Assembly (NCBI RefSeq): GCF_014876185.1
Contig: NZ_JADALJ010000001.1
Coordinates: 3,515,501 to 3,579,500 of the forward strand
From: Rufibacter sp. LB8
Lineage (GTDB): Bacteria > Bacteroidota > Bacteroidia > Cytophagales > Hymenobacteraceae
Direction of reading: 5' to 3'
Length of the DNA stretch: 64,000 nucleotides
Shown here in pieces: positions 3,236-63,585 of this stretch (within the stretch, counting starts at the first letter, position 1; every line of letters starts with the position of its first letter). The notes beneath the pieces are model-generated. The model was not told the origin of the DNA. It saw only the letters and a program-made list of their open reading frames with translations, and searched no databases. The position numbers and the translations under genes are program-made.

Positions 3236-3275
3236 CCGTTTTCGGGCTCATTTCTGGAAACGAAGCCAAAAACAG
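3236..3275. repeat. GCTC palindrome P1 (degenerate)
   Basis: Left arm CCGTTTTCGGGCTCATTT is canonical. The right arm has drifted (AAACGAAGCCAAAAACAG), breaking several pairs. Intergenic. Confidence 0.8.
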
Positions 3276-3596
3276 AAGTGTCTTGCTTAGAAAGGCCGCA
3301 CCTGTATTTGTTCCCGGCACAACTTGTTTAAAGTACAGAACGAGACTGGTTTATTTACTTAGCTACAAACTGCACAAATAGGCAAACTATAGAAATCTGG
3401 ATTACCCTTTTTGCTAATGCCCTGCTTTTTTGCGGCCGGATTACTGCTTTTTGCTTCCTTTAAAATTTCAGGCAGAAGCTCAAGGCCACATTTTCAAGGC
3501 AGCACTTTCTATAAATACACAAGCACCCGATAAAATGAAAAGGATAGTGCCCAGCCTTGCTTCCATAACATGCTACTTGGAAAATGCTGATTTATA

Positions 3597-3626
3597 AAAA
3601 AGGCCTTCTATATAGAAGGCCTTTTT
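3597..3626. terminator. orphan perfect-palindrome terminator
   Basis: A 30-bp perfect palindrome (AAAAAGGCCTTCTA and its complement) with A and T tracts on both sides could act as a bidirectional terminator. No gene lies immediately next to it on either side; the nearest is the amidase, whose own terminator lies at 3703-3744. Confidence 0.6.
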
Positions 3627-3702
3627 ATTTGTGGGAAAGAAAGCTTGTAATAACGCTGAGTTAGATCCTAGAGAATCAAGTTGCACCAGCGGGAAGATAA
3701 AA

Positions 3703-3744
3703 AAAGCAGCCTTTGATGCACCAAAGTACACCAAAGACTGCTTT
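3703..3744 (-). terminator. terminator of the amidase operon
   Basis: AAAGCAG plus CTTTG at 3703-3715 pair with CAAAG plus CTGCTTT at 3732-3744. Read on the minus strand the hairpin is followed by a T tract. It lies 6 bp beyond the amidase stop. Confidence 0.6.
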
Positions 3745-3750
3745 CATACA

Positions 3751-5073
3751 TTATCGCTTAATGAACCGCTTAGAGACTTTCTTGCCGTCAATGACCATGT
3801 CTAAGATATAGACACCGCTACTGAGGGAAGTGATATCAATAGGTTGGTCGCTGGTTAAGGTGGGCAAGTCAAGGACGGTCTGTCCTGCGGTGTTAAGAAC
3901 CCTTGCGTTGGTGGCAGTTCCGGTGAAGCGAAGGGACAGCTCATTTTCAGCAGGGTTAGGGTAAGCGACAACTTCTTCATCTGCCTCAGCCTTGGCAACC
4001 GCCATTCTTGCCGTTGTTTGTTTGGTTACTCTTAGCCAGTTCAGGTTCCAGCCGCCCGCAATGGCCTTTAGGCGCAGCGTAAAGGTACCGCCCGTTGTGA
4101 TGCTAACCGTTTGGGAAATGGTTGTCCAGCCTGTCTGCCAACCCCCTGTAGAAGGTACGTTCACGCGTCCAAGCACTTTCACGCCAGTGAGGATGGACTC
4201 TATGGTGCCCCCGCCGTTCAAGCTGGCTACCCGGTATTCAATTGTGTAGTTGCCTGCGGTTGGAAAGCTGACGTTGCTGTAAGAGAACTCATCTCCGGTA
4301 TCAATATGGCTCACGTTCAGACCGGCACCGGTGTCAGAGCAAGTTTCTGTTTGCACTGCGCCAACCTGCACAGAAGAGTAAGTCTCTGCCTGTATGAGGG
4401 TGCCGGTGCTTACTGGCGGGGTACAGGTGGTGGTGCCAAGGCTGTTCTTGAGCGCGGTCAGGTAAGCGGTGGCAAACTTGTCTCGCCAGGTATTGTCCAG
4501 GAGTTTGGTGGCGTCACCTGAATCCACAAAGCCTATCTCGTTTAGTACGCCAATGGCGTTGTTGCCATTCAGAACGCCCAAATGATAGATATAGGTGGCA
4601 TCTTCCACAGAACGCCGGTTGGTCCAGCTGCCGCCTGCCGCCATGCGGTTCTGGACTTCCAGAGAGAAGTTGCTGTTGGCAGTGGTGCCTGACGTGCTTC
4701 TGTTGCACCAGAAAGTTTCTGTGCCGCTTCCGCCGCCGGCGTTGCAGTGAATGCTCAGGAACCGGTCTGCGCCCCAGCTGTTAGACATGTCACGGCGCTG
4801 CGTAACAGAGATCCAGCCATTAGCGGTAGTTCTCGTCATTTTCACTGAATAGCTGGCGCATTGGCTGTTTAACAGGTCGCGCAATTTAAGACCTACAGAA
4901 AGGGCGGTGGCAATCTCTGTACTGGTACGGCCGTCTGGGTTGCTGCCGTCTGCGGCGTAGCCGTGCCCCGGGTCAATCACTACCACTATCTGCGCCTGAA
5001 CGGCCAGTGTGAAAAAAGCCAGGCAGAAAGTCAATGCCACCCGTAGGAAGTTGTTTTGTATATGTTTGGTCAT
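3751..5073 (-). CDS. secreted N-acetylmuramoyl-L-alanine amidase with C-terminal carbohydrate-binding-like domain and T9SS tail
   Basis: This 440-residue enzyme should cleave the bond between muramic acid and the stem peptide of peptidoglycan. A signal peptide ends at about residue 28 (AVQAQ). The amidase_3 domain (about 29-215) shows all the zinc and catalytic residues: H37 in DPGHG, E53 in STEIA, H110 in LSIHCNAG and E180 in NEIGF. A beta-sandwich like family 6 carbohydrate-binding modules follows at about 225-350 (QAETYSSVQ to NLNWLRV). The C-terminus (VAYPNPAENELSLRF to SKRFIKR) is a T9SS type A sorting domain, so the enzyme is probably exported across the outer membrane. It lies 6 bp after the beta-propeller gene and is presumably co-transcribed. 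A defensive, nutritional or cell-division role cannot be told apart from sequence. Confidence 0.88.
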   Translation of the reverse strand: MTKHIQNNFLRVALTFCLAFFTLAVQAQIVVVIDPGHGYAADGSNPDGRTSTEIATALSVGLKLRDLLNSQCASYSVKMTRTTANGWISVTQRRDMSNSWGADRFLSIHCNAGGGSGTETFWCNRSTSGTTANSNFSLEVQNRMAAGGSWTNRRSVEDATYIYHLGVLNGNNAIGVLNEIGFVDSGDATKLLDNTWRDKFATAYLTALKNSLGTTTCTPPVSTGTLIQAETYSSVQVGAVQTETCSDTGAGLNVSHIDTGDEFSYSNVSFPTAGNYTIEYRVASLNGGGTIESILTGVKVLGRVNVPSTGGWQTGWTTISQTVSITTGGTFTLRLKAIAGGWNLNWLRVTKQTTARMAVAKAEADEEVVAYPNPAENELSLRFTGTATNARVLNTAGQTVLDLPTLTSDQPIDITSLSSGVYILDMVIDGKKVSKRFIKR

Positions 5074-5079
5074 AGTATG

Positions 5080-7017: not shown

Positions 7018-7201
7018 GTTTACGCCTATAGAATTAGGGATTTTTGGAATTGAGAGTCTGGAAGCAACCTTGAAGAAGGTCAAGCAATTTCCTGACAGAT
7101 AAAATAACCATTCAGGAAACTCTGGCTCCTTTAACTGCAAAGAACAAATATAGGTGTCTGCTAATACTACTCGTCACCTGCCATTAACTTGTCTCAAAAA
7201 A

Positions 7202-7245
7202 TTCCGTTTTCGGGCTCATTTCTGGAAATGAGCCCGAAAACGGAA
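7202..7245. repeat. GCTC palindrome P2 (44 bp)
   Basis: Arms from TTCCGTTTTCGGGCTCATTT to its complement, broken only at the centre (CTGG). It lies about 70 bp downstream of the metallopeptidase stop. Confidence 0.9.
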
Positions 7246-7316
7246 GGACAGTCCCACGAAACCATGGGAAAATAGCTTTGGGTACTATTCTGAACGACTA
7301 CTAAGCGGCTGTGACG

Positions 7317-8219: not shown

Positions 8220-8358
8220 AAGAGTCTCTTTTAAGGAAGTGAAGGATAGTATGTTGAGCAGTTGTAACGTCTTTCCCTGGAAATCTCACCATGTGCCCGA
8301 ACCCTATAACGGAGGGCAGCCTCACTTAGATGCGCCCAATTTCTCAGGGCGGCCCAAG

Positions 8359-8398
8359 CCGTTTTCGGGCTCATTTCCGGAAATGAGCCCGAAAACGG
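8359..8398. repeat. GCTC palindrome P3 (perfect, 40 bp)
   Basis: A perfect palindrome with arm CCGTTTTCGGGCTCATTTCC. It lies in the 291-bp gap between the divergent metallopeptidase and macroglobulin genes, one of the few copies that sit upstream of genes on both sides. Confidence 0.9.
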
Positions 8399-8510
8399 AA
8401 AATCGCGCCCGCTACCACCTCGTTAAAATGAATATTTCTATATAGTTCCCATCAAATAAACCGCAGGTTGTGTAAGTTTAGAGAAGGAAACCTCTACCCG
8501 CCCAAACTGC

Positions 8511-13985: not shown

Positions 13986-13998
13986 AATTCTGTAAATG

Positions 13999-14036
13999 CG
14001 TTTTGGGCTTCATTTCCAGAAATGAAGCCCAAAACG
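13999..14036. repeat. GCTC palindrome P4
   Basis: Arms CGTTTTGGGCTTCATTT and the exact complement. The GCTTC arm is matched by GAAGC on the other side, a compensated variant. Confidence 0.9.
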
Positions 14037-14083
14037 GAATGCAAATTTTAAGGGGCAGCAATGATAGCTTACGGTATCTGATT

Positions 14084-14232: not shown

Positions 14233-14266
14233 GTCACCAGGTTCTGGGTGGGCAATACCATAGACG

Positions 14267-14304
14267 CGTTTTGGGCTCCGTTTCCAGAATAGAGGTCAAA
14301 AACG
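14267..14304. repeat. GCTC palindrome P5 (degenerate)
   Basis: Left arm CGTTTTGGGCTCCGTTT; right arm AATAGAGGTCAAAAACG. Only the outer part still pairs. It lies 34 bp before pbpC. Confidence 0.7.
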
Positions 14305-14337
14305 GAAATTAACTTTATAGATTACACTTTTACCAGA

Positions 14338-16680: not shown

Positions 16681-16690
16681 TAAGGTACAT

Positions 16691-16734
16691 TTCCGTTTTT
16701 GGCTCCGTTTCTGAAAATGAGCCCGAAAACAGGA
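16691..16734. repeat. GCTC palindrome P6
   Basis: It starts 11 bp after the pbpC stop. Arms TTCCGTTTTTGGCTCCGTTT and AAAATGAGCCCGAAAACAGG, with some mismatches. Its position suggests a role in ending or protecting the transcript. Confidence 0.8.
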
Positions 16735-16815
16735 ATGACTGCCCCTGCTATGCGCACTTATCACTACCTACGCTGTTGCCGTCAATGAGCCCCAGAGACG
16801 GTGAAAGGCAAGTTC

Positions 16816-19743: not shown

Positions 19744-19789
19744 AAGCCGTTTTCGGGCTCATTTCCGGAAATGAGCCCGAAAACGGCTT
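19744..19789. repeat. GCTC palindrome P7 (perfect, 46 bp)
   Basis: A perfect palindrome with arm AAGCCGTTTTCGGGCTCATT extended to the centre. It lies between the hemerythrin and DUF2249 genes, both read leftward, where a terminator would separate two units. Confidence 0.92.
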
Positions 19790-21334: not shown

Positions 21335-21601
21335 AGTGGTAATGGTTTGGTTAAGAAGTATCAAAGAATGAGCGAAAGGTAAAACCCAATTTCTTTAAAT
21401 AAAAGATAAAGAGGTATTTTATTATTTTAACGCAAGATTCTTCTAGTTAGGTTCATTGGATGTCCATTATTTTTTATGGGACGATAGGCTGCCAACCTGT
21501 TGCTTTTAGGCTTTGCCACCCGCCTGTCAAAGGTAACGGAGAGCACAAAGGGTGTATATGATGCGGGTCTCCAGGGCCTATGATGCTGGTCATGAAACCC
21601 G

Positions 21602-21641
21602 CTGTTTTAGGGCTCACTTCTGAAAATGAGCCCTAAAACAG
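21602..21641. repeat. GCTC palindrome P8 (compensated variant)
   Basis: Arms CTGTTTTAGGGCTCACTT and the near-complement AAAATGAGCCCTAAAACAG. The A in TTTAGGG is matched by T in CCCTAAA. It begins 5 bp beyond the stop of the membrane-protein gene. Confidence 0.9.
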
Positions 21642-21645
21642 ATTG

Positions 21646-25711: not shown

Positions 25712-25766
25712 GGATTGTACAGGCGTCAGCAGAAGCAGCCTTGGTACCTGTGAATTGTACCAGAAC

Positions 25767-25820
25767 AGCCCTCCTGTTTTTGGCCTCATATTCAGAAATG
25801 AGGCCAAAAACAGGAGGGCT
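25767..25820. repeat. GCTC palindrome P9 (54 bp, long compensated variant)
   Basis: Arms AGCCCTCCTGTTTTTGGCCT and the complement, the longest copy. GGCC replaces GGGC on both sides. It lies 56 bp after norZ and is followed by a T-rich run. Confidence 0.92.
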
Positions 25821-25973
25821 GCTTTCTTTAGCTGCCTTTTGCGGCATGGCCCTTTTGCCTGGGCCCTAAACTAATCTTTATCAGGTTTTTGAATGACCAA
25901 TGTCATGTGATACCCGGTGCCCACCCCCGAGCTTTACAGAACTATAAAGTGTCCTTTCCTAATCCTAAAAATC

Positions 25974-28994: not shown

Positions 28995-29090
28995 GCAGAA
29001 GTTTAGGAGACCAGATCGATTTCTTTCGCCAGAAAAGTAGAAGGAAACAACACCAGACAGCATATGGCGATGTACAAACAGATACCTGGT

Positions 29091-29134
29091 TTCCGTTTTC
29101 GGCTCCGTTTCTGGAAATGAGCCCGAAAACAGGA
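29091..29134. repeat. GCTC palindrome P10
   Basis: Arms TTCCGTTTTCGGCTCCGTTT and AAATGAGCCCGAAAACAGGA with a few mismatches. It lies between the SCO and glutathione peroxidase genes. Confidence 0.85.
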
Positions 29135-29181
29135 TGGCTACAACTGGCGAGCGGCCGTAAAAAGGATAATTTTGTACCGCT

Positions 29182-29784: not shown

Positions 29785-29830
29785 TTTCCGTTTTCGGGCT
29801 CGTTTCTGGAAATGAGCCCGAAAACGGAAA
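29785..29830. repeat. GCTC palindrome P11 (46 bp)
   Basis: Arms TTTCCGTTTTCGGGCTCGTT and the near-complement. It starts 10 bp after the glutathione peroxidase stop. Confidence 0.9.
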
Positions 29831-30386: not shown

Positions 30387-30408
30387 TTTCCGTTTATCTT
30401 TGATACCG

Positions 30409-30448
30409 GCGTTTTGGGGCTCATTTCTGGAAATGAGCCCCAAAACGC
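30409..30448. repeat. GCTC palindrome P12 (compensated variant)
   Basis: Arms GCGTTTTGGGGCTCATTTC and the complement. GGGG on the left is matched by CCCC on the right. It lies between the DUF1569 frame and the next gene. Confidence 0.92.
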
Positions 30449-30505
30449 AGTTCATCTCCATTTTCTGCAAGTTATAAGCCTGCGTAACGTTATTCTCATT
30501 GTGCT

Positions 30506-31389: not shown

Positions 31390-31437
31390 AAAGCCGTTTT
31401 GGGGCTCATTTTCAGAAATGAGCCCCAAAACGGCTTT
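31390..31437. repeat. GCTC palindrome P13 (48 bp)
   Basis: Arms AAAGCCGTTTTGGGGCTCAT and the complement, followed by a T run (CTTTTTG), so it looks like a working terminator for the gene ending at 31327. Confidence 0.92.
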
Positions 31438-32106: not shown

Positions 32107-32299
32107 ACGCTTACAGTACTTTTAGCTTTTACATATCGCGTTAAGTCTACTTGTAGTGCCCCCTGGGCGTGTTCTGGGCAACCAGACGGCCCCCTGAAAT
32201 TGACTGTTGGTTGAAAGAGCCAGCTGCCGCCTGTTGCTTTTAGGCGCGTATGTTGCCGGGGTATGCTAAGTGATTTTCCTGCGATTCATTAACTTCTGC

Positions 32300-47584: not shown

Positions 47585-47603
47585 TACTATTTCTTCATAA
47601 AAG

Positions 47604-47639
47604 CCGTTTTTGGCCTCTATTTTCAAAATGGAAGAAAAA
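47604..47639. repeat. GCTC palindrome P14 (degenerate)
   Basis: Left arm GCCGTTTTTGGCCTCTATTT; right arm reduced to AAAATGGAAGAAAAAC. It lies 20 bp after the PorP/SprF stop, ahead of the next gene. Confidence 0.55.
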
Positions 47640-47684
47640 CTAGACCCAGCTGTGCAAACAGCGCCTCCCGCCCGACCAAACCCT

Positions 47685-49661
47685 ATGAAAACGTTTATTG
47701 CCACTGTCTTCTTTCTGTTTGCCCTGGTGTTGAGCCCGCTTGCCAGCTGGGCGCAGGAAGACACCAAACAGGCCGACAAACATTTTGATGATTTTGAGTA
47801 CGCCCTGGCCTTAAAGGGTTACCAATCGGCGCTGGAGAAAAACCAGCCCACCCTGGAACTGGTAGAGAAAATAGCGCATTGCTACCGTTTCATGAACCAG
47901 CCCAAAAACGCCGCCTTCTGGTACCGCCAGGTGATTGGGTTTGCCGGTTCGGCGCCCGTTAACTTGTTCTATTTTGCCGAAGCCAGCAAGCAGAACGGTG
48001 ATTACCTCACCGCCAAGCGCCATTACCTTTTGTTTGCGGAGCGCGAGCCGGCAAGAAGAGACGAAGCCCTGCAGTTTGCCAAGGGCTGCGATTGGGCCAT
48101 GGCCTGGATTGACCGCCCCATGGCTTTTGAAATAACCCAGGAACAAGCGCTGAACTCCACCTACGCAGATTTTAGCCCAGTTTTCTACCAAGACGGCCTG
48201 GTGTTTTCCTCAGACCGCCTCACCAGCAATGACCAGAAAGTTTATGGTTGGACCGGCACGCCGTACCTGCAGCTGTACTACGCACCCCGCTTAGACAACA
48301 ACTGGGGCGCCATCAAACCCCTGGACAACACCATCAATACTGAATACCACAACGCCACCGCCACGTTCTCTGAGAGTTTCCAGGAAGTCTTTTTTACCCG
48401 TACCAAGCAGGTGAAAAACCGCGTGCTGCCAGAGGAAGTGCAGGGAGCCAACGTGTGGCAGAAATTCTCCAAAAACGACAAATTCATCAACCGCCTGGAG
48501 ATTTACAGCGCCACGCTCAAGAACGGGAAATGGCAGGAGCCGGTGCCGTTCGCCTTTAACAAGGGCGAGTCTTATTCCATGGGCCACCCGGCACTTTCGC
48601 AAGACGGCAACCTGCTTTATTTTGTCTCTGACATGCCCGGCGGCTACGGCCAAACCGATATCTATTTCTCTGAACGCCGCCCAGACGGTTCCTGGACAGA
48701 CCCCAAGAACGTAGGGCCAGAGATCAACACGCCAGGCAAGGAGGTGTTCCCGGTGATCAACAAAGACGGCAAGCTTTATTTTTCCTCAGACGGGCACATA
48801 GGCATGGGCGGCTTGGATATCTTCTCCGCGGTGGGCAACAAGAATGCCTGGAAACAGGTGGAGAACCTGTACTATCCCTTTAATTCGCCCAGGGATGATT
48901 TTGGCCTCATTTACGAAAAGGACGGCAAAAACGGCTTTTTCTCTTCTAACCGAGACTCAGACGTGGGCTCAGACAACATTTTTAGGTTTGCGCCCAAGTT
49001 CATTCCGTGTAAACTGGCCGGTGTGACGTTTGTGCGCATCACCAGCAAAAACGGCACGTCTACGTCTTCGCCGGTTGAAGGCGTGACGCTGTCTGTGCAA
49101 GCCACCGGCGGCGACACGCTCAAATCGTTCCAGGTGACTTCTAATGCCAAAGGCGAATTCCTGTTTGAGGTGGAAGCCAACACGCTCTATACCATTAAAG
49201 GCAGCAAGCGCGGCTACCTGAACCAAACCATTCACGTGGCCCCAGACTGCCGGAAAGTGACTGACACGGTCTCCATGGAAATGGTGCTCAACCGCGACAC
49301 GCCTAACAAGGCCATTGTGCTGGAGAACATTTACTATGATTTGGACAAATATGACCTTCGGGCGGAATCTATTGCCGAGCTGGACAAGGTGGTAGCCATG
49401 CTGCAGGACAACCCCACCATCCGCATTGAGCTGGGGTCGCACACAGACAGCCGCCAGACCATGAAATACAACCAACTGCTGTCGCAGATGCGCGCTGCCA
49501 CCGCCGTCAAGTACATTCTCTCCAAAGGCATAAATCCCAAACGAGTCATTGCCAAAGGCTACGGCGAAACCAAGTTGCGCAACAAGTGTACTGACGGCGC
49601 CACCTGCTCTGAGGAAGAACACCAACTCAACCGCCGCACCGAATTCAAAATCCTTCGGTAA
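47685..49661 (+). CDS. PorE-like TPR, PD40 propeller and OmpA peptidoglycan-binding protein
   Basis: The 658-residue exported protein (signal peptide ending near LASWAQ) has TPR-like helices (about 25-140), a WD40/PD40 propeller (about 150-445, including FSPVFYQDGLVFSS and GHPALSQDGNLLYFVS), a carboxypeptidase-regulatory-like domain (about 455-545) and a C-terminal OmpA domain with IELGSHTDSRQTMKYNQL. PorE of Porphyromonas gingivalis has this domain order and anchors T9SS to peptidoglycan. Third in a row with the giant protein and PorP/SprF, it probably serves the same export route. I chose the ATG at 47685 because upstream in-frame codons (from 47610) run through palindrome P14. Confidence 0.88.
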   Translation: MKTFIATVFFLFALVLSPLASWAQEDTKQADKHFDDFEYALALKGYQSALEKNQPTLELVEKIAHCYRFMNQPKNAAFWYRQVIGFAGSAPVNLFYFAEASKQNGDYLTAKRHYLLFAEREPARRDEALQFAKGCDWAMAWIDRPMAFEITQEQALNSTYADFSPVFYQDGLVFSSDRLTSNDQKVYGWTGTPYLQLYYAPRLDNNWGAIKPLDNTINTEYHNATATFSESFQEVFFTRTKQVKNRVLPEEVQGANVWQKFSKNDKFINRLEIYSATLKNGKWQEPVPFAFNKGESYSMGHPALSQDGNLLYFVSDMPGGYGQTDIYFSERRPDGSWTDPKNVGPEINTPGKEVFPVINKDGKLYFSSDGHIGMGGLDIFSAVGNKNAWKQVENLYYPFNSPRDDFGLIYEKDGKNGFFSSNRDSDVGSDNIFRFAPKFIPCKLAGVTFVRITSKNGTSTSSPVEGVTLSVQATGGDTLKSFQVTSNAKGEFLFEVEANTLYTIKGSKRGYLNQTIHVAPDCRKVTDTVSMEMVLNRDTPNKAIVLENIYYDLDKYDLRAESIAELDKVVAMLQDNPTIRIELGSHTDSRQTMKYNQLLSQMRAATAVKYILSKGINPKRVIAKGYGETKLRNKCTDGATCSEEEHQLNRRTEFKILR

Positions 49662-49688: not shown

Positions 49689-49740
49689 CCGTCTGCGTTT
49701 TGGGACTCATTTCCAGAAATGAGCCCCAAAACGCAGACGG
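49689..49740. repeat. GCTC palindrome P15 (52 bp, with T tract)
   Basis: Arms CCGTCTGCGTTTTGGGACTC and the complement with one mismatch, followed by TTTTTTGTG. It lies 28 bp after the OmpA-protein stop and looks like its terminator. Confidence 0.92.
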
Positions 49741-49960
49741 TTTTTTGTGTCTGCTACTCTATGGTGCCGTTGCCCTGTCTCTGGTATTCGCCTTTGGTCA
49801 AGCTCCGCACCGCATCAGTCCAAATCTTTAACATGAAAGGGCACCTGGTCATATAGGCTAAATGGGAAAGTGCTGCTCAAATACCGTTTGTTCATTCAAT
49901 GGAATGAATTGGCTCAGAGTTTCAGATTGGTTGCCTTTAACAGGCAAACGCACCAGCCTT

Positions 49961-50000
49961 CCGTTTTCGGGCTCATTTCCGGAAATGAGCCCGAAAATGA
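49961..50000. repeat. GCTC palindrome P16
   Basis: Core 49964-49997 is perfect (TTTTCGGGCTCATTTCC and its complement); the outermost pairs are lost on the right. Confidence 0.9.
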
Positions 50001-50233
50001 GGAAACATTCCAAGGATAATAATCCCAATAGCATCCATGTATAGGTTTTGCTCTGAAGGAATACCTGACCCCTATTTTCGGAAGTCTGACTTATAGGCTT
50101 GAAGTCGATAAGGTTTTTCAATCGCCCTATTTAAATTCAGTAAATGGATTACTTAAATGGACTACTACTAGAAGAAGCCGGTAGCTTCTATCGAGGCATT
50201 TTTGGTTTCCAGCCGACAAATAGATTTACAAAA

Positions 50234-53504: not shown

Positions 53505-55286
53505 TTAGAACTTCTCCTCTACCCAGAGAAAAGCGGCGCACAAAAGGAGAACAAGCCAGAACGGCCATAGGGGAAAGGGCTGGGAATGAGTTTTTGGCTG
53601 CGCGCCAGCCGGGTATTGCTCTGACGCCAGAGATGCTTTTTTCAGGCGCTGTTGGTTTGCCCATACATGACGCGTTTCCCAGGCGCTGGCAGCGTTGACA
53701 TAGACAGATGATAAGGTGTCGCCAGCGCTTTCAAAAGTACGCCAGCCGCTGCTCTGGGGCCACCAAAGACCGGTGTTGTATGCCAAAGAAGATTCTCGCT
53801 GCAAAGACAATGACACACGTGGTTCACTACCGGCTTTCAGAACCTGTATATCTTGCTCCGTAGTGGTAAGCAAAAGCGGTTGGTTAACGGCCGGATAAGT
53901 GGGCGAAAAAGCAAAAGGCTTCGCTGGGGCAGGCTTGGCCAGGGCACTCAACAGCGTGGCCCAGAATTGCTGATAGTGGGCTTCTTTTCCTTCCAAGGCC
54001 CACGGGAACGTCTCCAGTAGTAGGCTCACGCCCACCTGACCCATACCTTTTCTGGAGTGTATTGCCCAGGCGTGCGCGCGTGTTTTCCCCCAGGCCAAAA
54101 TTTGCTGATGTTCCCGTGGTTTCAGAAATACGTTTGGCGCGGGAACCGCACCTTGGCTAGAAGATTGTCCCGCCCACTGCACCGGGGCGTTTTTGGCCTC
54201 ATTTCCGGAAACGGAGCCAAAAACGGCTTCAATGAAAAAAGGGATTGGTTTGGGCCGCGTTTGGGAAACAGAGGTCAAAATCCCGAGGCCCTGCTGCCGC
54301 ACGGCCTGCTGCAAAATCTGCTTCTCACTGCCGGACAAACCTTGCAAGGTCACGTCATCTATCAGCACCACGTCAAATTTCTGAAGCAGCGCTGTGGTGA
54401 GTCGGGGCAACGCAAGGGTTAGCAAATTCACGGTCTCGGTTTGGAACACGCCTTTGCTCACCTGCGTGCGCACCGCCACGCCGTGCCCCTGCCGGGCCAG
54501 CGCGTTCTTCAAAAACTTGGTTTCAAACGAAGGTGAGGACGAAAGAAACAACACGCTCAACAGACGAGGCGCCTCCACCTGCACGGGCACGGGTTCCTGG
54601 TACGTGGAATCGTCTTGCTGCCACCGCAACTGGTACACAAAACGCCCCGCAGACTTGGGTTTGAACCGAAGCGAAAATGCCTGCCCCACACCTTTTTTCA
54701 CTTCCACCGAATCTCGGTTCAGACCAGCGGCGTGCAAATACAACCTAGTAGCCTTTTCCGGCGAAGTGAATTTCCCCTGCACCACCAGGTCTTTGCCCAG
54801 CGTGATTTTCTGCGGCCACGAGGCAGCCAGCACGCCCGTTGGCAACGGTGATAAATGCGGCACCAGCCTGATAGAATCTAACGCCGCCAATTCTTCTTCT
54901 CTCAGCCCGTGGCCCAACACGTGCAGCGTCTGCACTGCCGGGTGCTCTTGTTGAAAAGCCGTCAAGTCTTTTACCAGATTGCCCGGTTTGTTTTCAGTTA
55001 CGCCGAAGTAAAAAACCTGCGGCTTGGGTTTGAGGCGTTTCAATAACTGCTCAAGCGTGTCTGTGCTGTAGCCTTCGGTTATTAAAATAGCTTCAGAGGC
55101 ATTATAGATGCGCGTGATTTTGGGCGGCGAAACCAGGAAAAACAGGCACGCCACCGCCAGCAAATTTGCCACTAACCGCGCCCACAGCCAACGGCGGTCT
55201 GCCCGGCGCACGGCCAGCCACGTGAGCCAGGCGCCCAACAGCAATGCCAAGGAAAGAAGAAGCGGCAGCGGGATGGTCACGGTCAA
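53505..55286 (-). CDS. membrane protein of the MoxR/BatA operon, GATase-like core
   Basis: This 593-residue protein has two N-terminal helices (LLLSLALLLGAWLTWLAV and LVANLLAVACLFFLV), a large periplasmic part and a C-terminal helix (PLWPFWLVLLLCAAFLW). Text such as VLFLSSSPSFETKFLKNAL and KFDVVLIDDVTLQGLS resembles the glutamine-amidotransferase-like domains of uncharacterised MoxR-operon proteins. It is last in the operon and its TTG start overlaps the upstream TGA (TTGA); no ATG is nearby. Palindrome P17 lies in frame and encodes EAVFGSVSGNEAKNAPV. Function is unknown; envelope stress or assembly is inferred from the operon. Confidence 0.65.
   Translation of the reverse strand: MTVTIPLPLLLSLALLLGAWLTWLAVRRADRRWLWARLVANLLAVACLFFLVSPPKITRIYNASEAILITEGYSTDTLEQLLKRLKPKPQVFYFGVTENKPGNLVKDLTAFQQEHPAVQTLHVLGHGLREEELAALDSIRLVPHLSPLPTGVLAASWPQKITLGKDLVVQGKFTSPEKATRLYLHAAGLNRDSVEVKKGVGQAFSLRFKPKSAGRFVYQLRWQQDDSTYQEPVPVQVEAPRLLSVLFLSSSPSFETKFLKNALARQGHGVAVRTQVSKGVFQTETVNLLTLALPRLTTALLQKFDVVLIDDVTLQGLSGSEKQILQQAVRQQGLGILTSVSQTRPKPIPFFIEAVFGSVSGNEAKNAPVQWAGQSSSQGAVPAPNVFLKPREHQQILAWGKTRAHAWAIHSRKGMGQVGVSLLLETFPWALEGKEAHYQQFWATLLSALAKPAPAKPFAFSPTYPAVNQPLLLTTTEQDIQVLKAGSEPRVSLSLQRESSLAYNTGLWWPQSSGWRTFESAGDTLSSVYVNAASAWETRHVWANQQRLKKASLASEQYPAGAQPKTHSQPFPLWPFWLVLLLCAAFLWVEEKF
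54187..54227. repeat. GCTC palindrome P17, inside a coding sequence
   Basis: Arms GCGTTTTTGGCCTCATTTCC and GGAAACGGAGCCAAAAACGG. It is translated without a stop in the 593-residue protein, with the first G of the minus-strand GTTTTT run at codon position 1. Confidence 0.88.
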
Positions 55287-57496
55287 TTTAAACGGTTAAA
55301 GTAGTCTTGGGCCAGTTTTTTCTTAGCGGCGGCCGAGGGGCGTTTTTGGGCTCGTTTTTCAGAATGAGGCAAAAAACGATGCAGCGCGGTCTGTACCCGC
55401 ACCAAGCAGTCGGCGCAAACGTTGCGTTTGGCCCGCAGGTCCTGCACCACGCGCCGCAGATCTTGCAGCGCCCGCAGGTAATTGCCCGGTTCCCGGATGG
55501 CGGCCTTGCCCAGCTCCTGCCCAGCCTGTTCCAGCACCGCGGCGTCATCTGGCTGGGGGGTGCCGCCCGTTTTCAGATTCTCCACGCGCTGCAATGCCTG
55601 CCGCACCACAGGGTAAGAGGCCTCGGGCTTTTCTTCGCGGCGCAGGGCTACGGTCTGTACTTTGCTGAGGTCACCGCTCAGGCGCTTCTCAGGTACTTTG
55701 AGCGGCGGCGGCTCGTAGCCAGATTTCTTCACGTACACCCTGGAACTTTGCTGCACGTCTTTGAGCAGCCGTAGCGCCTTGTACTCAAACGGCAGCGCTT
55801 CCTTGGGCCGACCGGTGCGCAGCCGGAGTTCGGCTTCCCACATCTGGGCGAGCGCGCCTTTGAGTTTGGCTTTCACGGCGGGCTCAAAAAACGTGGCGGC
55901 CTCTTCCTGGTCATGTTTGTGCAGGTAAGGGTCCAGGAGTTCGTTCATTTGGGTTTGGTGCTCGCTTTCGCCTTGCTTGGGCGCATGGTCATGGCCGTCG
56001 TCCGCAGAGTGGCCTTCGGGTAAGCCGGCGGCGCCGATGTTGGACTCAAACTCCTCGCCCAGGAATTTGCCGTAGCGCAACCGCAGCAGTTTTTGGTCCA
56101 CGCCAATGTTGTTGGCCCGGTCGTTGAACACCGCCGGAGCCAGGCTTTTCTGCTCTTGAATCAGTTTCTCCGTGTCAATAATGATCTGGCGTTGGCTCCG
56201 GAAATACTCTGGGTTGGGGTTCACGCCCAATGACAGATCATCCATGGATTCTACCACGGTGGTGTCTTCAATCTCTACCAAAAAAGCCTCGGTGCGGAAG
56301 GAGCCGCGGTGGTTGTCCTGGGTCTGCAGGTAAAAATAGAGTTCATCGCCGTAGGTCATGCCCAGTTTCTGTAAATCCAGGGTCTGGTTCAGTTGCAAAC
56401 GCCTGGGCTGACCGGCAAACGACAGATTCAAGGGAATGCGCTGCTCCCGGAATTTCACGGCCTCGCCTTCGCCTTTGGCCACCGTGGCCACCAGCTCGGC
56501 GCTGCGCAGGCCGTAGTCGTCTTGCAGCGTGGCCTGAACAGTTACGCGCTGCGGCTGGCCAAACAGAATCTCTGTGTAAGCGGCAGGTTTCTGCACGGTA
56601 ATGCTGGGAGGCTGGTCTGGAATCACTTCCAGTGAATAAAAATCTGAGGCCTGCCCGTTCAACTTGAGATGGTACAGTGAGGACTGCGTAGCCATGGTGC
56701 TGGCCGAATACGTGTTCTCCTTCCCTCTCACGGGCCGTAACGGAATGGGTTTATGATTGCTCAGCACCAGTTGCAATGATTTTACGGCTTGGTTAGTCTG
56801 CACCGTCCAGGTCACCTGCGCGCCCGCCTCTACCTTAAACGACGGCGTGGTCACGGCATACGGTGCCTTGCGCGTGTACGCCGGTGGCGAAATGCGCACG
56901 TGCAGTTGTTCTATGGCCGGTAAAATTGCCTTCGGTGCAACAACGGGCGTTTCTACGTTAGCCGAAGTTCCGGGCCGTTCGGCGGCGGTTGGTTTCTCAG
57001 CCCGCGGGAAGCCTGGTACCAGCCAAATCACACCAGCCAGCAGAAGTCCGGCCATCAGCGCCCACCAACCATTCCTGGCGTTGACGTGCGCCGCCTGCGC
57101 GACCGGTAGCTGTTCCAAGGCTGGCATGATGCGCTGTTTCTGAAGCTGGGCTAATAAGGTCAAGTCATGGTAGGGCACCAGAAACAGTTCGGCGCTTTCT
57201 TCCAGTTGCGGGAATTTCCGGTTCAGGTGCTGGGCTATTTGCCGGGTACTGGTCTTTCTCTTGAGCTGTGCCCAGCGCACTACCTGCAAGAGTAAGAGCA
57301 AGACGCCCAGCAGGCCAGCGGCAATGGCCGCTTCGCCCGTTCCCTGGTGCCAGCTTCTATACGCCCACACCGCTAACGGCAACATCACGCCCAGCGCCTG
57401 CCACGCAAAAAGCCACGCCTTGCGCGCCAAATACTTGCTGCGGACCTGGTACAGGACGGCGGTGGCTGGGATGGTATGGGAGGTGGGGTGTGGCAA
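55283..57496 (-). CDS. DUF4175-like membrane protein of the MoxR/BatA operon
   Basis: The 737-residue protein has an N-terminal segment with transmembrane helices (AWQALGVMLPLAVWAY, AIAAGLLGVLLLLLQVV, WWALMAGLLLAGVIWLV) and a long periplasmic region of beta domains (ISPPAYTRKAPYAVTTPSF) and charged helices, as in DUF4175 proteins of MoxR clusters. Start is TTG at 57496, since no ATG or GTG occurs near. It overlaps the next gene by TTGA. Palindrome P18 lies in frame near the C-terminus and encodes HRFLPHSEKRAQKRPS. Function is unestablished. Confidence 0.7.
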   Translation of the reverse strand: MPHPTSHTIPATAVLYQVRSKYLARKAWLFAWQALGVMLPLAVWAYRSWHQGTGEAAIAAGLLGVLLLLLQVVRWAQLKRKTSTRQIAQHLNRKFPQLEESAELFLVPYHDLTLLAQLQKQRIMPALEQLPVAQAAHVNARNGWWALMAGLLLAGVIWLVPGFPRAEKPTAAERPGTSANVETPVVAPKAILPAIEQLHVRISPPAYTRKAPYAVTTPSFKVEAGAQVTWTVQTNQAVKSLQLVLSNHKPIPLRPVRGKENTYSASTMATQSSLYHLKLNGQASDFYSLEVIPDQPPSITVQKPAAYTEILFGQPQRVTVQATLQDDYGLRSAELVATVAKGEGEAVKFREQRIPLNLSFAGQPRRLQLNQTLDLQKLGMTYGDELYFYLQTQDNHRGSFRTEAFLVEIEDTTVVESMDDLSLGVNPNPEYFRSQRQIIIDTEKLIQEQKSLAPAVFNDRANNIGVDQKLLRLRYGKFLGEEFESNIGAAGLPEGHSADDGHDHAPKQGESEHQTQMNELLDPYLHKHDQEEAATFFEPAVKAKLKGALAQMWEAELRLRTGRPKEALPFEYKALRLLKDVQQSSRVYVKKSGYEPPPLKVPEKRLSGDLSKVQTVALRREEKPEASYPVVRQALQRVENLKTGGTPQPDDAAVLEQAGQELGKAAIREPGNYLRALQDLRRVVQDLRAKRNVCADCLVRVQTALHRFLPHSEKRAQKRPSAAAKKKLAQDYFNRLN
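55340..55378. repeat. GCTC palindrome P18, inside a coding sequence
   Basis: Arms GCGTTTTTGGGCTCGTTTTT and GAATGAGGCAAAAAACG. It is read in a different frame from P17; the frame stays open because the usual TGA site is CGA on the coding strand. Confidence 0.8.
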
Positions 57497-57533
57497 GGTG
57501 GTTTTGGCTAGAATTTAAAGAATGGCAGAGTAA

Positions 57534-58376
57534 TTAATCTACATCATCACAATCAGAATCCATTTTAACGAAAAGCTTGTTAAACTCTTCTTCCATTGGC
57601 ATTTCTCTGTAGAGACTGTTATACTTTCTTTGATGATTGGCGCAGTTCCACCAACCAAATGTCATAAGTTCAATTTTTGCATATTGAAGTCTTTCAGGAG
57701 ATTGCCTTTGCTCCTTGAATTTTGCAGCTAATTTTTCTGGGGCACCATTGTTCTTTTTCTTTTCTTCTATAAGATTCTCCCAGGCCTTGAATAACAAAAC
57801 GCTGTCTTCAGATGCCAACGCGTTAACATAGACTTCACATTTTTTTGAATAACTATTGTTGAGAAGTATAACTGGTGTTCTATATGCTTCAATGGTTAGT
57901 TTCCTCAACGCATATAATTCCTCAAGCTCTTTTAGTTTTAAATCTTTAACGGTAGCCCAGAACTTAGATGGAATCAACTTCAAGTTTTTTAACCTATCTG
58001 TAGCGCTTCGGTAATCAGCATCAAGCTTAATGCTTTTTCTTTTAATGGTGTCAGCAGTCAACTCCTGTAGAGACATAAAAGTAACGTCTTCTAATTCATT
58101 GAGACTTTCAAACTTATGCCATAAATAATGAGTGTCCTTTAATTGTTTCGCTGAATATAGCTTAGAATTGTATTTGCCTTGATGTTCACAATAACTGCTT
58201 TCCCATGCAAAATTCTGAAGAGAATCTGTTTTGGCATTAGTAGCATGAGGAAGTGCCGTTTCTTGTGTGGGCACAGGAGGATCAACAATAGCCGTACTTC
58301 TACTTTTACAAGAAAATAGAAAAGCCAAAATAGTCAAGGCCATAAGGAGAAGCTGACTTGAGCTAAAGAACTTCAT
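57534..58376 (-). CDS. lipoprotein of unknown function inserted in the MoxR/BatA operon
   Basis: From the ATG at 58376 the product has 280 residues, a signal peptide with lipobox (LAFLFSCKS), then a mostly helical, charged sequence with several cysteines (SSYCEHQG, KKCEVYV, WWNCANHQRKYN, DSDCDDVD). I recognise no family. The ATG overlaps the BatA-like stop as ATGA, so translation is coupled. Its DNA is visibly more AT-rich than the flanking genes, which suggests separate ancestry. It is not part of the usual MoxR-DUF58-BatA gene set as I know it. Confidence 0.6.
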   Translation of the reverse strand: MKFFSSSQLLLMALTILAFLFSCKSRSTAIVDPPVPTQETALPHATNAKTDSLQNFAWESSYCEHQGKYNSKLYSAKQLKDTHYLWHKFESLNELEDVTFMSLQELTADTIKRKSIKLDADYRSATDRLKNLKLIPSKFWATVKDLKLKELEELYALRKLTIEAYRTPVILLNNSYSKKCEVYVNALASEDSVLLFKAWENLIEEKKKNNGAPEKLAAKFKEQRQSPERLQYAKIELMTFGWWNCANHQRKYNSLYREMPMEEEFNKLFVKMDSDCDDVD

Positions 58377-59929
58377 TTCAGTGTAGATAATTGGTTTCCC
58401 CTCCTCCCCGCCAACCATCTTTCCAATGCCAGCAACAGCGCCGCCAAAGCCACCAGCCACGGTTTTAGGTCCAATACTTCTTCCGTTTTTGGCTTCATTT
58501 CCAGAAACGAGCCCGAAAACGCGCGGGGGATTTCCACGGCGGCGGGCAGGGTGCGGGCGTCATATAAGGTTTTCCAGGCAGTGTTTTCTGGGAAGAGCAG
58601 GCGCAACAGCAGTTCCGGGAAGTGACCATTGTCTACCAAAGCGTTCCAGGCTGGGTGAAACCGACTGTAAAACCGGTACTGCGTGTGGCGCGCGGCTTGT
58701 TCCTGGGTGAGCATAGGCTGCCCGAAACCATCTTGCCAGAGCACAGCCGCGGCAGGGTTTACGGGGGCGGGTACGCGCTGATGCAGGGACACGGGTTGCG
58801 CGAGGCCGGGAATCTGGAGCCAGCTTTCGGATTTCTGGATGCGGGCCGAGGTAGGTGCGTCTTGCAGCGTTTTCAGGCTCGTTTCTGGAAATGAGGCCAA
58901 AAACGGGGCCAGTGGTTCGTCTGTGAGCCAGAAAACCCAGTGGGGCGCGGCGGTGGGCATGGCTTGCGGAGCCGAGGAAACGGTGAGGTCAACCGCAGCT
59001 CCGCGGTAATTCAGCGCCGTTTGCAACGCGGCTTTGAGATACCGCACATCGGCTTGCCGCGCCTGGTCAAAACGGACCAAGACCCGAAGCGGCGCGGTAG
59101 TCACTGGAATTGAATTTCGGGCACCGCCTTGCAGCGTGAGGGAGTCCAAAGTAGCATTTTGTGAGAATCGAACCGAGGGGAATTCTGGTAGTGTGAGGAT
59201 TTGCCCCGGCACGGGTTTCGGTACTTTTCTCTCCAGGAACGTGACTTCCTGGCCATTGCTTTTCCCGAACTGGAGCCGCAACTGGCCCGAAGTAGTGTAG
59301 AACGCCTCTTGCAACCAGACGTTTGTCTGCGGAACGCTCACCGGCACCCACGTCATGTTGGGCGCTAGCGCAGGGAATTCGCCGCGGTGGTGCCGGAGCA
59401 AATCTGTGCTGAACACCCAGGCCTGCGCATGCGCCGGAAGACTTCTGTTGAGAACCCGCAATAGGGCCCAGGCATTGGTAGTATCTGTGGCCGAGGCATC
59501 TGCCTGAAAAGTAGTGATGGACGTTTCTGGGTTTACCGGAAGATTAGGGAAACCAGGGGTCAACAGGTGAATTCGCCACCCGTTCTGTGCCAATGAATCT
59601 ACAGTTTTGGCAATCTGGGGAAGATAGTTTTCTTGCAGCATCGCCGGATGCAGATAGGCGTGCCGTTCAGGCTGGGCGGTTATCTGGCGCTTGTAGAAAG
59701 GCTGGGCCAACACCAAGGCCAATACTACCAACAACAGGCAGCGGAACAACAGCAGCCAGGGCTCCGACAGTTGGAGTCGGCTGAGTTTCTGGCTCTGCGA
59801 CGCCTGCAACCACCTAATACTGCCCACCAGCACCGTCTGGGGCGGGCGCTTGTTCCAAAGATGAATGGCAATGGGCACCGCCACCGCTACCGCCGCCCAT
59901 AACCAACTGGGGTGTAGAAACTGGAACAA
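58373..59929 (-). CDS. BatA-like membrane protein
   Basis: The 518-residue product begins FQFLHPSWLWAAVAVAVPIA followed by HLWNKR, the diagnostic N-terminal BatA motif (PF07584), then a second helix (LLLFRCLLLVVLALVLAQP) and a large periplasmic part. It ends with a third helix (LVALAALLLALERWLAG). BatA-type proteins work with MoxR and DUF58 proteins in Bacteroidota envelope stress and assembly. The start is TTG at 59929; the conserved motif begins at the next codon and no ATG is available. Two palindromes lie in frame: P20 (FLASFPETSLKTLQ) and P19 (AFSGSFLEMKPKTEE, just before the last helix). Confidence 0.82.
   Translation of the reverse strand: MFQFLHPSWLWAAVAVAVPIAIHLWNKRPPQTVLVGSIRWLQASQSQKLSRLQLSEPWLLLFRCLLLVVLALVLAQPFYKRQITAQPERHAYLHPAMLQENYLPQIAKTVDSLAQNGWRIHLLTPGFPNLPVNPETSITTFQADASATDTTNAWALLRVLNRSLPAHAQAWVFSTDLLRHHRGEFPALAPNMTWVPVSVPQTNVWLQEAFYTTSGQLRLQFGKSNGQEVTFLERKVPKPVPGQILTLPEFPSVRFSQNATLDSLTLQGGARNSIPVTTAPLRVLVRFDQARQADVRYLKAALQTALNYRGAAVDLTVSSAPQAMPTAAPHWVFWLTDEPLAPFLASFPETSLKTLQDAPTSARIQKSESWLQIPGLAQPVSLHQRVPAPVNPAAAVLWQDGFGQPMLTQEQAARHTQYRFYSRFHPAWNALVDNGHFPELLLRLLFPENTAWKTLYDARTLPAAVEIPRAFSGSFLEMKPKTEEVLDLKPWLVALAALLLALERWLAGRRGNQLSTLK
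58483..58522. repeat. GCTC palindrome P19, inside a coding sequence
   Basis: Arms CCGTTTTTGGCTTCATTTCC and AAACGAGCCCGAAAACGCG. It encodes a linker directly before the C-terminal transmembrane helix of the BatA-like protein. Confidence 0.85.
58867..58906. repeat. GCTC palindrome P20, inside a coding sequence
   Basis: Arms GCGTTTTCAGGCTCGTTTC and GAAATGAGGCCAAAAACGG. It lies mid-gene in the BatA-like protein, in the same frame phase as P19. Confidence 0.85.
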
Positions 59930-60527: not shown

Positions 60528-60568
60528 AGTTGTTCTTTTGTTGCGGGTAAAGATAAGGAGCAAGCGTT

Positions 60569-60609
60569 CTGTTTTCGGCTTCATTTCTGAAAACAAGCCC
60601 GAAAACGGG
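60569..60609. repeat. GCTC palindrome P21
   Basis: Arms CTGTTTTCGGCTTCATTTC and GAAAACAAGCCCGAAAACGG with mismatches. It lies about 40 bp upstream of the methyltransferase ATG. Confidence 0.8.
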
Positions 60610-60729
60610 AATTGGCGCAGACACTCGTAGGAACTGCGCGCACTACGAGGTCATTTGAGCAAAGGCTTTTGGGTATTTGAAGGATTATTTCTTTGCCTGC
60701 TTTAAACTTATTCTGGCGTGAATTTTTGA

Positions 60730-60887: not shown

Positions 60888-60900
60888 CGAAAAAATCCAA

Positions 60901-60942
60901 GCCGTTTTCGGCTTCATTTCTGAATTTGAGCCCAGAAACGGC
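60901..60942. repeat. GCTC palindrome P22
   Basis: Arms GCCGTTTTCGGCTTCATTTC and GAATTTGAGCCCAGAAACGG. It starts 13 bp after MITE copy B and 37 bp beyond the DUF58 stop. Confidence 0.8.
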
Positions 60943-60978
60943 AACTCAGGACTCAGAACTCAAGACTCAGAACTCCTC

Positions 60979-61863: not shown

Positions 61864-61900
61864 TGTTACTTAGTGTTGAGTAATTATTGAATTTTTAGGA

Positions 61901-62061: not shown

Positions 62062-62072
62062 TGCACAAAAAA

Positions 62073-62447
62073 TTATAAATTTGGAGCCTTCTTTTCTGCA
62101 ATCCAAGTTTCCAATGTTCGCTGTATATTGGGCAAATCATGCATCACTTCATTGTCTGAGAACCTAAGAACTGTAAAGCCTAAGTCAGACAATACTTTGT
62201 CTCTTGCGGAATCTTCGTCTGATTTAAAGTTGTGGGAATAACCGTCAACTTCAATAATCAGCATCAGTTCCTTGCATAAAAAATCTGCAATGTAGTTTCC
62301 CACGGGCCGCTGCCGAAGAAAAGAGACGCCTAGCTTTCCTTTGTTCAACAATTCACACCATAACCTGATTTCGGCTTTGGTGGAACCTTGCCGGTGGTTT
62401 TTGGCGAAAGCCTTCAGGTGTTTGTTGTAGTGCTGGTTGAAAGGCAT
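62073..62447 (-). CDS. DUF559 endonuclease-like protein (Vsr-type fold)
   Basis: The 124-residue protein has the DUF559 pattern: AKNHRQGSTKAEIRLWCEL, FLRQRPVGNYIADFLC, LIIEVDGYSHN (the E-x-D of a restriction-like fold) and DLGFTVLRFSDNEV. DUF559 proteins relate to very-short-patch-repair endonucleases; their biological role is poorly known. The gene lies 34 bp after moxR in the same direction and ends 12 bp from MITE copy C. It is not a usual member of MoxR operons, so gene and element may have arrived together. The start is the ATG at 62447. Confidence 0.85.
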   Translation of the reverse strand: MPFNQHYNKHLKAFAKNHRQGSTKAEIRLWCELLNKGKLGVSFLRQRPVGNYIADFLCKELMLIIEVDGYSHNFKSDEDSARDKVLSDLGFTVLRFSDNEVMHDLPNIQRTLETWIAEKKAPNL

Positions 62448-62481
62448 AAGCAGGCCAAGTTTCTCAGGCCTTATACGTGCT

Positions 62482-63477
62482 TTATCGCAACACCTCCTTC
62501 GGCAGCTCCACGCCTTTCAGGAGTTCTTCCACTACTCTATCTGTGGAAATATTCTCTGCCTCTGCCGTGAAATTCACTAACACTCTATGCCGTAGCACGG
62601 GGTAGGCCATGGTCTGCAGGTCAGGCAAGGTTACCGCGAACCTGCCTTGGAGCAACGCTCTGGCTTTGGCGGTGAGAATGAGGGCCTGTCCTGCTCTGGG
62701 ACCGGCGCCCCACCGTACAAATTCCTGCACGAAGGGCACCGGGCTGTCTTCTGGCCTGGTGGCGCGCACCAGACGGGCAACATAGCTGACCAATTCGTCT
62801 GAGATGGCCAGCTCGCGCACCAGACTTTGCAAGGCCAGAACCTCGGGCCCAGACAGAATAGGCTGCACTTTTTCACGAGCGCCGCCGGTGGTGCTTTTCA
62901 ACACGGAGATTTCCTCCAGCTCGGTGGGGTACTTGATTTTGATGTAGAGCAGGAAACGGTCCAGTTGGGCCTCGGGCAAGGGGTACGTGCCGCTCTGTTC
63001 AATGGGGTTCTGCGTGGCGAGCAGGAAAAACGGCCGGGGCAAAGGATAGGTTTTGCCGGCGTAGGTCACCTCAAATTCCTGCATGGCCTCCAGCAGCGCA
63101 GCCTGGGTTTTGGGCGGCGTGCGGTTGATTTCGTCGGCGAGTACAATGCTGGCGAAGATGGGGCCTTGGTTAAACTGGAAGAAACGCTTGCCGGTCACAT
63201 GGTCCTCTTCCAAAACTTCGGTGCCCAGAATGTCAGTAGGCATCAAATCTGGCGTGAACTGGATGCGCCGGAACGGCAACTCCATGGCGCTGGCCAGGGT
63301 GCGGACCAAAAGCGTTTTGGCGAGGCCGGGCACGCCTTCCAGCAGGCCGTGGCCGCCGGCCAGAAGCGTGATGAGCACTTCGTCCAGTACTTCCTGCTGG
63401 CCTACAATAATTTTACCTATTTCCTGCCGCAGCGTGGGCAGTTTGCTTAACAACTGGGTTACTTCTTGTGCAGTCAA
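62482..63477 (-). CDS. MoxR-family AAA+ ATPase
   Basis: The 331-residue ATPase has Walker A in GVPGLAKT (about 55-62), Walker B in SIVLADEINRTPPKTQAAL, sensor 1 in LLATQNPIEQSGTYPLPEAQ and an arginine-finger region (LDRFLLYIK). MoxR proteins act as chaperones for partner proteins, typically the DUF58 and VWA/BatA proteins encoded downstream, and affect stress resistance and envelope assembly. It is the first gene of the operon. The start appears to be TTG at 63477, since no ATG or GTG is close. Confidence 0.92.
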   Translation of the reverse strand: MTAQEVTQLLSKLPTLRQEIGKIIVGQQEVLDEVLITLLAGGHGLLEGVPGLAKTLLVRTLASAMELPFRRIQFTPDLMPTDILGTEVLEEDHVTGKRFFQFNQGPIFASIVLADEINRTPPKTQAALLEAMQEFEVTYAGKTYPLPRPFFLLATQNPIEQSGTYPLPEAQLDRFLLYIKIKYPTELEEISVLKSTTGGAREKVQPILSGPEVLALQSLVRELAISDELVSYVARLVRATRPEDSPVPFVQEFVRWGAGPRAGQALILTAKARALLQGRFAVTLPDLQTMAYPVLRHRVLVNFTAEAENISTDRVVEELLKGVELPKEVLR

Positions 63478-63537
63478 GGGCGGGGTGAAAGCTAAACGGT
63501 TCGTATTGGCTAAAGTAAGCGATTAGACTGGATTTGT

Positions 63538-63585
63538 CTTTCTGTTTTTGGCCTCGTTTTCAGAAATGAGCCGAAAAACAGAAAG
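63538..63585. repeat. GCTC palindrome P23
   Basis: Arms CTTTCTGTTTTTGGCCTCGT and AAATGAGCCGAAAAACAGAA. It lies between the divergent moxR and TPR-protein genes, so it cannot be a simple 3' terminator here. Confidence 0.85.

Follow-up and report, generated by a model that had tools for sequence, protein, structure and literature searches.

We observed that the genome of Rufibacter sp. LB8 carries a very dense family of palindromes, which we followed from a 64,000-nucleotide stretch (contig NZ_JADALJ010000001.1, positions 3,515,501 to 3,579,500; hereafter the window). We tentatively read these palindromes as DNA hairpin signals that belong to one genus and stay at fixed sites, and not as transposons that are moving at present. 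This reading as a whole is held with somewhat less than even confidence; its fixed-site part is well supported. The palindromes look more like a signal that has been rewritten than like DNA that jumps.

The copies were detected with a symmetrised weight matrix of a 46-bp palindrome (consensus TTTCCGTTTTCGGGCTCATTTCYRGAAATGAGCCCGAAAACGGAAA) at a threshold of 14 bits or more. The original prediction had counted at least 23 dispersed palindromes in the window; we found 24, 21 of them above 40 bits, and the family proved larger than stated. Our sample of this genome comprised 464 kb, namely the window and 20 further stretches, five of which had been placed on genes of the repetitive extragenic palindrome (REP)-associated tyrosine transposase (RAYT) or Y1 type. 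This sample held 217 copies, and the reversed control sequence gave no match at 14 bits and none at 10 bits. Extrapolated from it, the main 4.59-Mb contig has about 2,150 copies. In the same genome the pattern CTCATTTNNNNAAATGAG occurred at 957 places with at most one mismatch, against none for the reversed pattern, and at 1487 places with at most two mismatches, against 16. These counts, with about 47 copies per 100 kb, bear out the density that had been claimed.

The family is restricted to the genus. It was present in all 16 genomes of the genus that were searched and in none of 82 other members of the family and order, among which the reversed control pattern gave one match in one genome. 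The genus-wide pattern undercounts because its centre is three bases long (only 5 matches in the own genome), and it shows presence, not copy number. The relatives' form of the palindrome was found in at least 120 stretches of a named genome collection, with Rufibacter or Sabulibacter in all 80 matches listed; the exact own-species sequence had no match in this collection, from which this genome or its nearest relatives may be absent. In four members of the genus, long inverted repeats were counted at a density of 24-32 per 100 kb. For the 22 outgroup loci the density was 1 per 100 kb, a value that is biased since these loci are gene-centred. Rfam had no match in the window, and the open-licence literature on palindromic or intergenic repeats of Rufibacter or Cytophagales gave no description of such palindromes, which agrees with the earlier statement that no described counterpart was known.

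The palindromes are nearly absent from the second contig (155 kb), which we infer to be a plasmid. The own matrix gave 3 weak matches in 100 kb of it, against about 47 per 100 kb. A species-neutral second detector, which undercounts the own genome (114 against 217), gave 4 matches there, the listed arms being mostly of the relatives' TGTTTT type. The second contig (L383-L387) also carries repeated metal-efflux-like gene sets, and the arms of its few family-like palindromes are mostly in another species' dialect, as if the contig derived from a relative.

We evaluated the pairing of the two arms, which had been predicted to change together. Paired cells make up 84.1% of the total in the 24 window copies and 78.2 ± 1.1% after shuffling; the covariation score is 0.233 against 0.139 ± 0.015, and 45 cells are altered on both sides against 23.7 ± 3.9 (0 of 500 shuffles for each of the three). 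In these copies, however, two-sided change was not spread over more pairs than in the shuffles (8 against 8.4), and further pair types were only slightly up (29 against 25.4; 25 of 500 shuffles). Among the 217 copies of the sample, the 183 scoring at least 40 paired more often than independence predicts in two parts of the stem: position -4, with 111 pairs against 71.0, and positions -10 to -14. At the palindrome centre, pairing was far under expectation (25 against 85); the centre is asymmetric and copies can therefore be oriented by it (CTGG/CTGA).

The stem has a dialect core on its inside (here CGTTTTNGGGCTCATTTC-NN-GAAATGAGCCCNAAAACG) and an outer part that is site-specific yet paired. 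This outer pairing reaches 10-15 unique bases in some copies, and 22 of 182 copies extend at least 7 pairs outward, against about 1.6 by shuffle. When arms were swapped among copies the full hairpin weakened (z -7.5 as RNA, -7.0 as DNA). Identical arm types numbered 54 against 23.7 expected over positions -4 to 3, but only 62 against 54.4 over -1 to 3; unlike arms also occur, for example GGGCTCA with GGCTCCG. In the own species the loop-proximal arm varies one-sidedly, and paired change is limited to the outer flank and a single inner position. Paired change, as originally predicted, therefore holds for the window copies, the outer flanks and position -4, and fails at the loop-proximal positions of this species: the matched changes of the variable block are confined to its first base (-4), the pairing of the outer flanks is upheld by the excess at -10 to -14 and by the unique paired flanks, and hairpin pairing is kept in the outer stem and at -4, with no excess in the rest of the inner part or at the centre. 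Identical copies without compensated change were not what we found, since the 183 copies include 162 distinct 38-mers.

Both arms occur together nearly always. Unpaired arms made up 2 of 220 in the own genome and 19 of 299 in nine relatives, and orphan arms in the 464 kb were no commoner than in the control (7 in each); the top-scoring one was a copy truncated by the end of a stretch, and only one more (L034, 20.5 bits) lay above the control maximum. A one-arm pattern detected these 299 arms in the nine relatives, and for 258 of them a partner arm makes 11 or more of 17 pairs. Over the variable positions -7 to 13, pairing there was above shuffle throughout, apart from position 12 (z 1.9); position -8 showed no such excess. 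The z values are inflated because the set was chosen by pairing and most palindromes were counted from both strands.

When we compared species, we observed that palindromes are retained at many orthologous sites in differing dialects, and that site retention is real but partial. In an EgtB-type gene, family-like sequence occupies the same codons in most of the 13 relatives aligned (two with split matches were excluded), and at two sites of the BatA-type gene (58373-59884, minus strand) they do so in most of 15 relatives, with length within one codon in both genes. Scored with the own matrix, the three coding sites reach 55.3, 50.2 and 59.8 in the own species against relatives' medians of 17.3, 21.1 and 16.9; the relatives' core is mostly ...CTGTTTT/AAAACAG.... 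The BatA copies are those at 58480..58525 (59.8 bits) and 58864..58909 (50.2 bits). Twenty-two outgroup BatA homologues (30-37% identical) are collinear at both sites, with no gap of 12-15 residues; one is 5 residues short at one site. The two BatA copies are therefore not insertions, as far as local alignment can be trusted.

In close species pairs, 60 of 114 copies were anchored on both sides (53 sites could not be anchored), and 34 of these 60 have a partner inverted repeat scoring at least 10, with both directions counted, against 2.5-7.5% of random windows. Inspection by eye of G013 against G007 found a family-like palindrome in all 16 anchored sites, of which the script had tagged only 8 as shared; at G013 17796, compared with G007, pairing was retained though the motif was lost. 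By eye, G001 and G005 share 10 of 13 sites, two copies in one stretch being absent from G005 and one being unclear; an earlier comparison of a region of these two genomes was mostly non-collinear and gained little. Next to the EgtB-type gene lies a site, judged by eye to be the same across the two pairs, where the outer stems of four species differ yet are well paired.

We also followed one intergenic site through the genus. Its gap measures 60-72 bp in 7 of the 13 species, with the palindrome perfect, degenerate or missing altogether, and is longer in 6; the site was not located in G002. Inverted-repeat scores were 24 in the own species, 19 in G005, 13 in G013, 10 in G006 and 2-6 elsewhere (control mean 4.3), and ran from 24 down to 2-4 among the seven species that keep the gap length. 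By eye, six of the low-scoring species have degenerate copies and three (G015, G008 and G009) have none. The two coding sites and this intergenic site are length-neutral and show no insertion.

Gene positions were taken from a custom gene finder built for this analysis. Of the 217 copies, 188 lie between two identified genes (100 tandem, 53 convergent and 35 divergent), 17 within genes and 12 at stretch ends. Their spacing is evener than random intergenic placement, with 15.5% of intervals below 300 bp against 29.2 ± 2.9% in simulation (0 of 500), and no strand or replichore bias of the copies was evident.

On our best reading, the hairpins would form, decay and be rewritten in place in species dialects, with a population genetics like that of DNA uptake sequences and not of moving REPs. 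A putative host factor of the genus may read the two-armed hairpin or palindrome as DNA, and better or current-dialect versions may be passed between cells when the corresponding chromosomal site recombines, in a molecular drive that would resemble that of DNA uptake sequences. Such a drive, acting in place, would allow a joint change of dialect at about two thousand sites with no insertion involved. Arm-to-arm template switching in replication could rewrite both sides of the stem at once, which would account for outer stems that are perfect yet site- and species-specific; template switching can create, maintain and repair hairpin stems, according to the available part of PMC8794818. Taken furthest, the palindromes could be a self-recognition signal of a new form, a two-armed hairpin with species dialects at about two thousand fixed sites under in-place, recombination-driven drive, which we regard as possible though doubtful. 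We know of no uptake signal in the host phylum. If the reading is true, thousands of hairpins per genome evolve in concert without moving, in a species dialect even within coding genes, and transposition and in-place drive, which are usually merged for repeated palindromes, come apart. Self-DNA marking outside Neisseria and Pasteurellaceae would then become testable, and hairpin rewriting at known orthologous sites would offer many natural replicates.

Several observations weigh against this reading. We found no candidate receptor or cognate gene, and DNA uptake sequences need a single short unit, whereas single palindrome arms are almost absent here. Loop-proximal positions of the own species have no pairing excess (observed against expected, 88/93 at -1, 100/111 at 0, 147/150 at 1, 102/118 at 3 and 107/119 at 7), a result predicted neither by simple selection on the hairpin nor by template switching, and swapping arms among copies left the inner hairpin unweakened (z 0.5 and 0.8). 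To these is added the inflation of the relatives' z values noted above. Two relatives score 51.6 in the own-species dialect at one BatA site, and the intergenic site reaches a score of 8 in only 4 of 13 species. Partial retention is also seen for the window copies, which, compared with six relatives, scored at least 10 in 8 of 29 comparisons (control 7.2%) and at least 8 in 13 of 29 (control 10.0%).

Alternatively, the palindromes could be miniature transposons of the REP kind, mobilised by a RAYT or another HUH enzyme, with many copies predating the species and with dialects that are successive subfamilies. High copy number, extragenic preference, a position shortly past stop codons (0-20 bp in 56 of 206 3'-distances) and species-specific sequence are all REP features in the available part of PMC3733652, and the mismatched, unlike arms of the own species recall bulged REPs. 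RAYT-type genes are present in 16 of 16 genomes of the genus; the NF047646 profile finds ten in the own genome, four of them over the cut-off. We examined nine of these ten RAYT/Y1 genes (all but that at C1:2896954), and seven have other hairpins in their flanks, for example GGGGATTTATCAATCCCC, GGACAGGTCGCGACCTGTCC and TTGTTGGTGTTATCACCAACAA; L296 showed no hairpin, and inspection of L041 by eye revealed only short repeats. Two of the nine, L037 and L041, have family copies on either side at no more than 500 bp, as expected when about half of all larger gaps contain a copy; some others have them on one side. The Y1 or RAYT gene flanked by the same palindrome that had been suggested as a check was therefore not found as a unit among the nine. 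No GTAG/CGTC foot was seen, the sequence beyond the stem carrying at most 0.15 bits per position (182 oriented copies), and there was no consistent target site duplication (702 column pairs; top z of 4.2, 3.8 and 3.7 at different offsets, with no run). The moving element implied by the original prediction fits poorly because the palindromes are site-conserved and length-neutral, with coding copies that are not inserts and an unchanged gap length at the intergenic site. We consider this explanation unlikely.

Individual candidates for a mover were rejected in turn. The start codon of the RAYT gene L027 lies inside a family copy, but its own hairpins are GGACAGGTCGCGACCTGTCC, and the gene is in 14 of 16 genomes. 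The IS200-like gene L041 has family copies on both sides and occurs in only 3 of 16 genomes. For a parent transposon with the arm as terminal repeat, no orphan arms stood above control except the L034 place and the truncated copy, and the 464 kb contained no larger element bounded by one arm on either side. An "inside-out" arrangement near the RAYT gene L295 occurs at 1-4 places in each of 16 genomes, with an ABC-F-type neighbour in 6 of 8 loci, and is therefore read as a conserved terminator.

Some further features of these loci can be noted. At L295:1711-1748 and 3420-3457 a similar arm stands in the inverse arrangement AAACAGAGCCCGAAAAC..GTTTTCGGGCTCTGTTT, probably the conserved terminator. 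RAYT-type genes each lie beside their own small hairpin type at L032:9606-10801, L035:9059-9625, L037:9783-10331, L027:11216-11839, L295:2313-2831 and L297:2164-2772, and one of the L027 hairpins is within the reading frame. This is in line with the atypical structures reported beside Bacteroidetes RAYT subclass 2.6 in the available part of PMC6006769. The relatives' RAYT-type genes L085, L086, L299, L279, L289 and others are listed with internal stop codons, which suggests decay. Two other dispersed palindromes have three listed places each: AGACCTCACAGGTTTTGGAAACCTGTGAGGTCT (L033:359, L034:3268 and L038:14154) and GTAGAGACAAGGC..GCCTTGTCTCTAC with GTAG at its end (L033:457, L034:3186 and L035:5828).

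An unlikely explanation of a similar order is that the palindromes are binding sites of a putative chromosome-organising or replication/repair protein that reads the palindrome or cruciform, sites and protein co-evolving. The need for two arms, the even spacing, the fixed sites and the presence on the chromosome and not on the second contig are consistent with it. However, if every site matters, a dialect shift across about two thousand of them is difficult, the site-specific outer stems are left unexplained, and we saw neither a strand or replichore pattern nor a candidate protein.

Hairpins acting at the RNA level at 3' ends, as terminators or mRNA stabilisers with a sequence common to the genus, are less likely still. 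A copy is present in 34 of 43 convergent gaps of at least 60 bp, but in 80 of 157 tandem ones and in 29 of 56 divergent ones; together with the nearness to stop codons, the pairing kept despite motif loss in G013 and the copies that lie within longer stems followed by T (49689-49740), this enrichment in convergent gaps favours such a role. Against it, about half of the divergent gaps hold a copy, conserved copies lie within genes, and the U tract of an intrinsic terminator is mostly missing: only 12 of the 90 tandem copies are followed by a T run on the mRNA strand, and 7 of 90 on the other. Nor was there any sign that T.G is preferred over C.A mismatches in one orientation. It is very unlikely that the palindromes are a functionless by-product of template switching that keeps and extends them in replication. 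This would fit the unique, perfectly paired flanks (22 of 182 copies with at least 7 pairs), the coordinated stem changes at the same site and the capacity of template switching to create and maintain hairpins (PMC8794818, available part) but would leave the shared dialect core, the even spacing and the persistence of loop-proximal mismatches unexplained.

Within the window, ordinary copies lie at 3233..3278 (66.9 bits), 7201..7246 (72.3), 8356..8401 (69.6), 13995..14040 (61.2), 21599..21644 (46.6), 29785..29830 (73.2), 30406..30451 (56.2), 49958..50003 (61.6), 60566..60611 (59.3) and 60899..60944 (48.4). The arms mismatch partially at 14263..14308 (43.8) and are unlike at 16690..16735 (62.7) and 29090..29135 (63.9). 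Outer flanks are paired at 19744..19789 (64.0; inverted repeat I4, arms of 23 bp, AAGCCG/CGGCTT), 31391..31436 (58.7; I5) and 63539..63584 (60.8), and a unique paired flank stretches the inverted repeat to 25766-25821 around 25771..25816 (55.9; I3) and to 49689-49740, followed by a T run, around 49692..49737 (55.2; I2). Besides the BatA copies, an intragenic copy, likewise compared with relatives, lies at 54184..54229 (50.4) in the reading frame 53505-55286 (minus strand). Three copies are weak (below 40 bits): 47601..47646 (20.1), possibly decayed or chance, whose site in a relative has no strong inverted repeat; 48892..48937 (25.6), within an OmpA-family gene and possibly chance; and 55337..55382 (30.1), near the 3' end of a DUF4175-type gene (55283-57496, minus strand). 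A 4781-codon reading frame occupies 32270-46615, and no family copy lies between 31391 and 47601. The inverted-repeat cluster TTGTCACAAA..TTTGTGACAA at 2526-2607 is unrelated to the family.

Compared with known systems, the palindromes resemble the REPs of RAYT/TnpAREP systems, as described in the available parts of PMC3733652, PMC6006769 and PMC8266576, in being short, abundant, species-specific, mostly extragenic after genes and sometimes intragenic. They differ in lacking the GTAG/CGTC foot and a cognate RAYT unit, in sites kept across species and length-neutral where tested, and in an outer stem that is site-variable yet paired. Miniature inverted-repeat transposable elements with terminal inverted repeats are likewise short, palindromic and present in many copies, but here there is no consistent target duplication and, in 464 kb, no larger element with one arm per end. 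With the DNA uptake sequences (DUS) of Neisseria and the uptake signal sequences of Pasteurellaceae (PMC2397512 and PMC3630211, available parts) they share about 2,000 copies, dialects of one motif within a family, in-place evolution, inverted pairs near gene ends, permissive places that include genes, and a preference for the core genome over acquired DNA, as in their scarcity on the second, probably plasmid, contig. In those sources, however, a DUS is a unit of 10-12 nt that works singly, whereas orphan arms here are at control level and the unit is a two-armed hairpin of about 38-52 bp; the palindromes therefore cannot be filed under DNA uptake sequences. Like the cyanobacterial highly iterated palindrome HIP1 (PMC4390886), they are very frequent across a lineage, but HIP1 is a fixed 8-bp word tied to methyltransferases, and the Rufibacter element is a long hairpin with variable, paired flanks.

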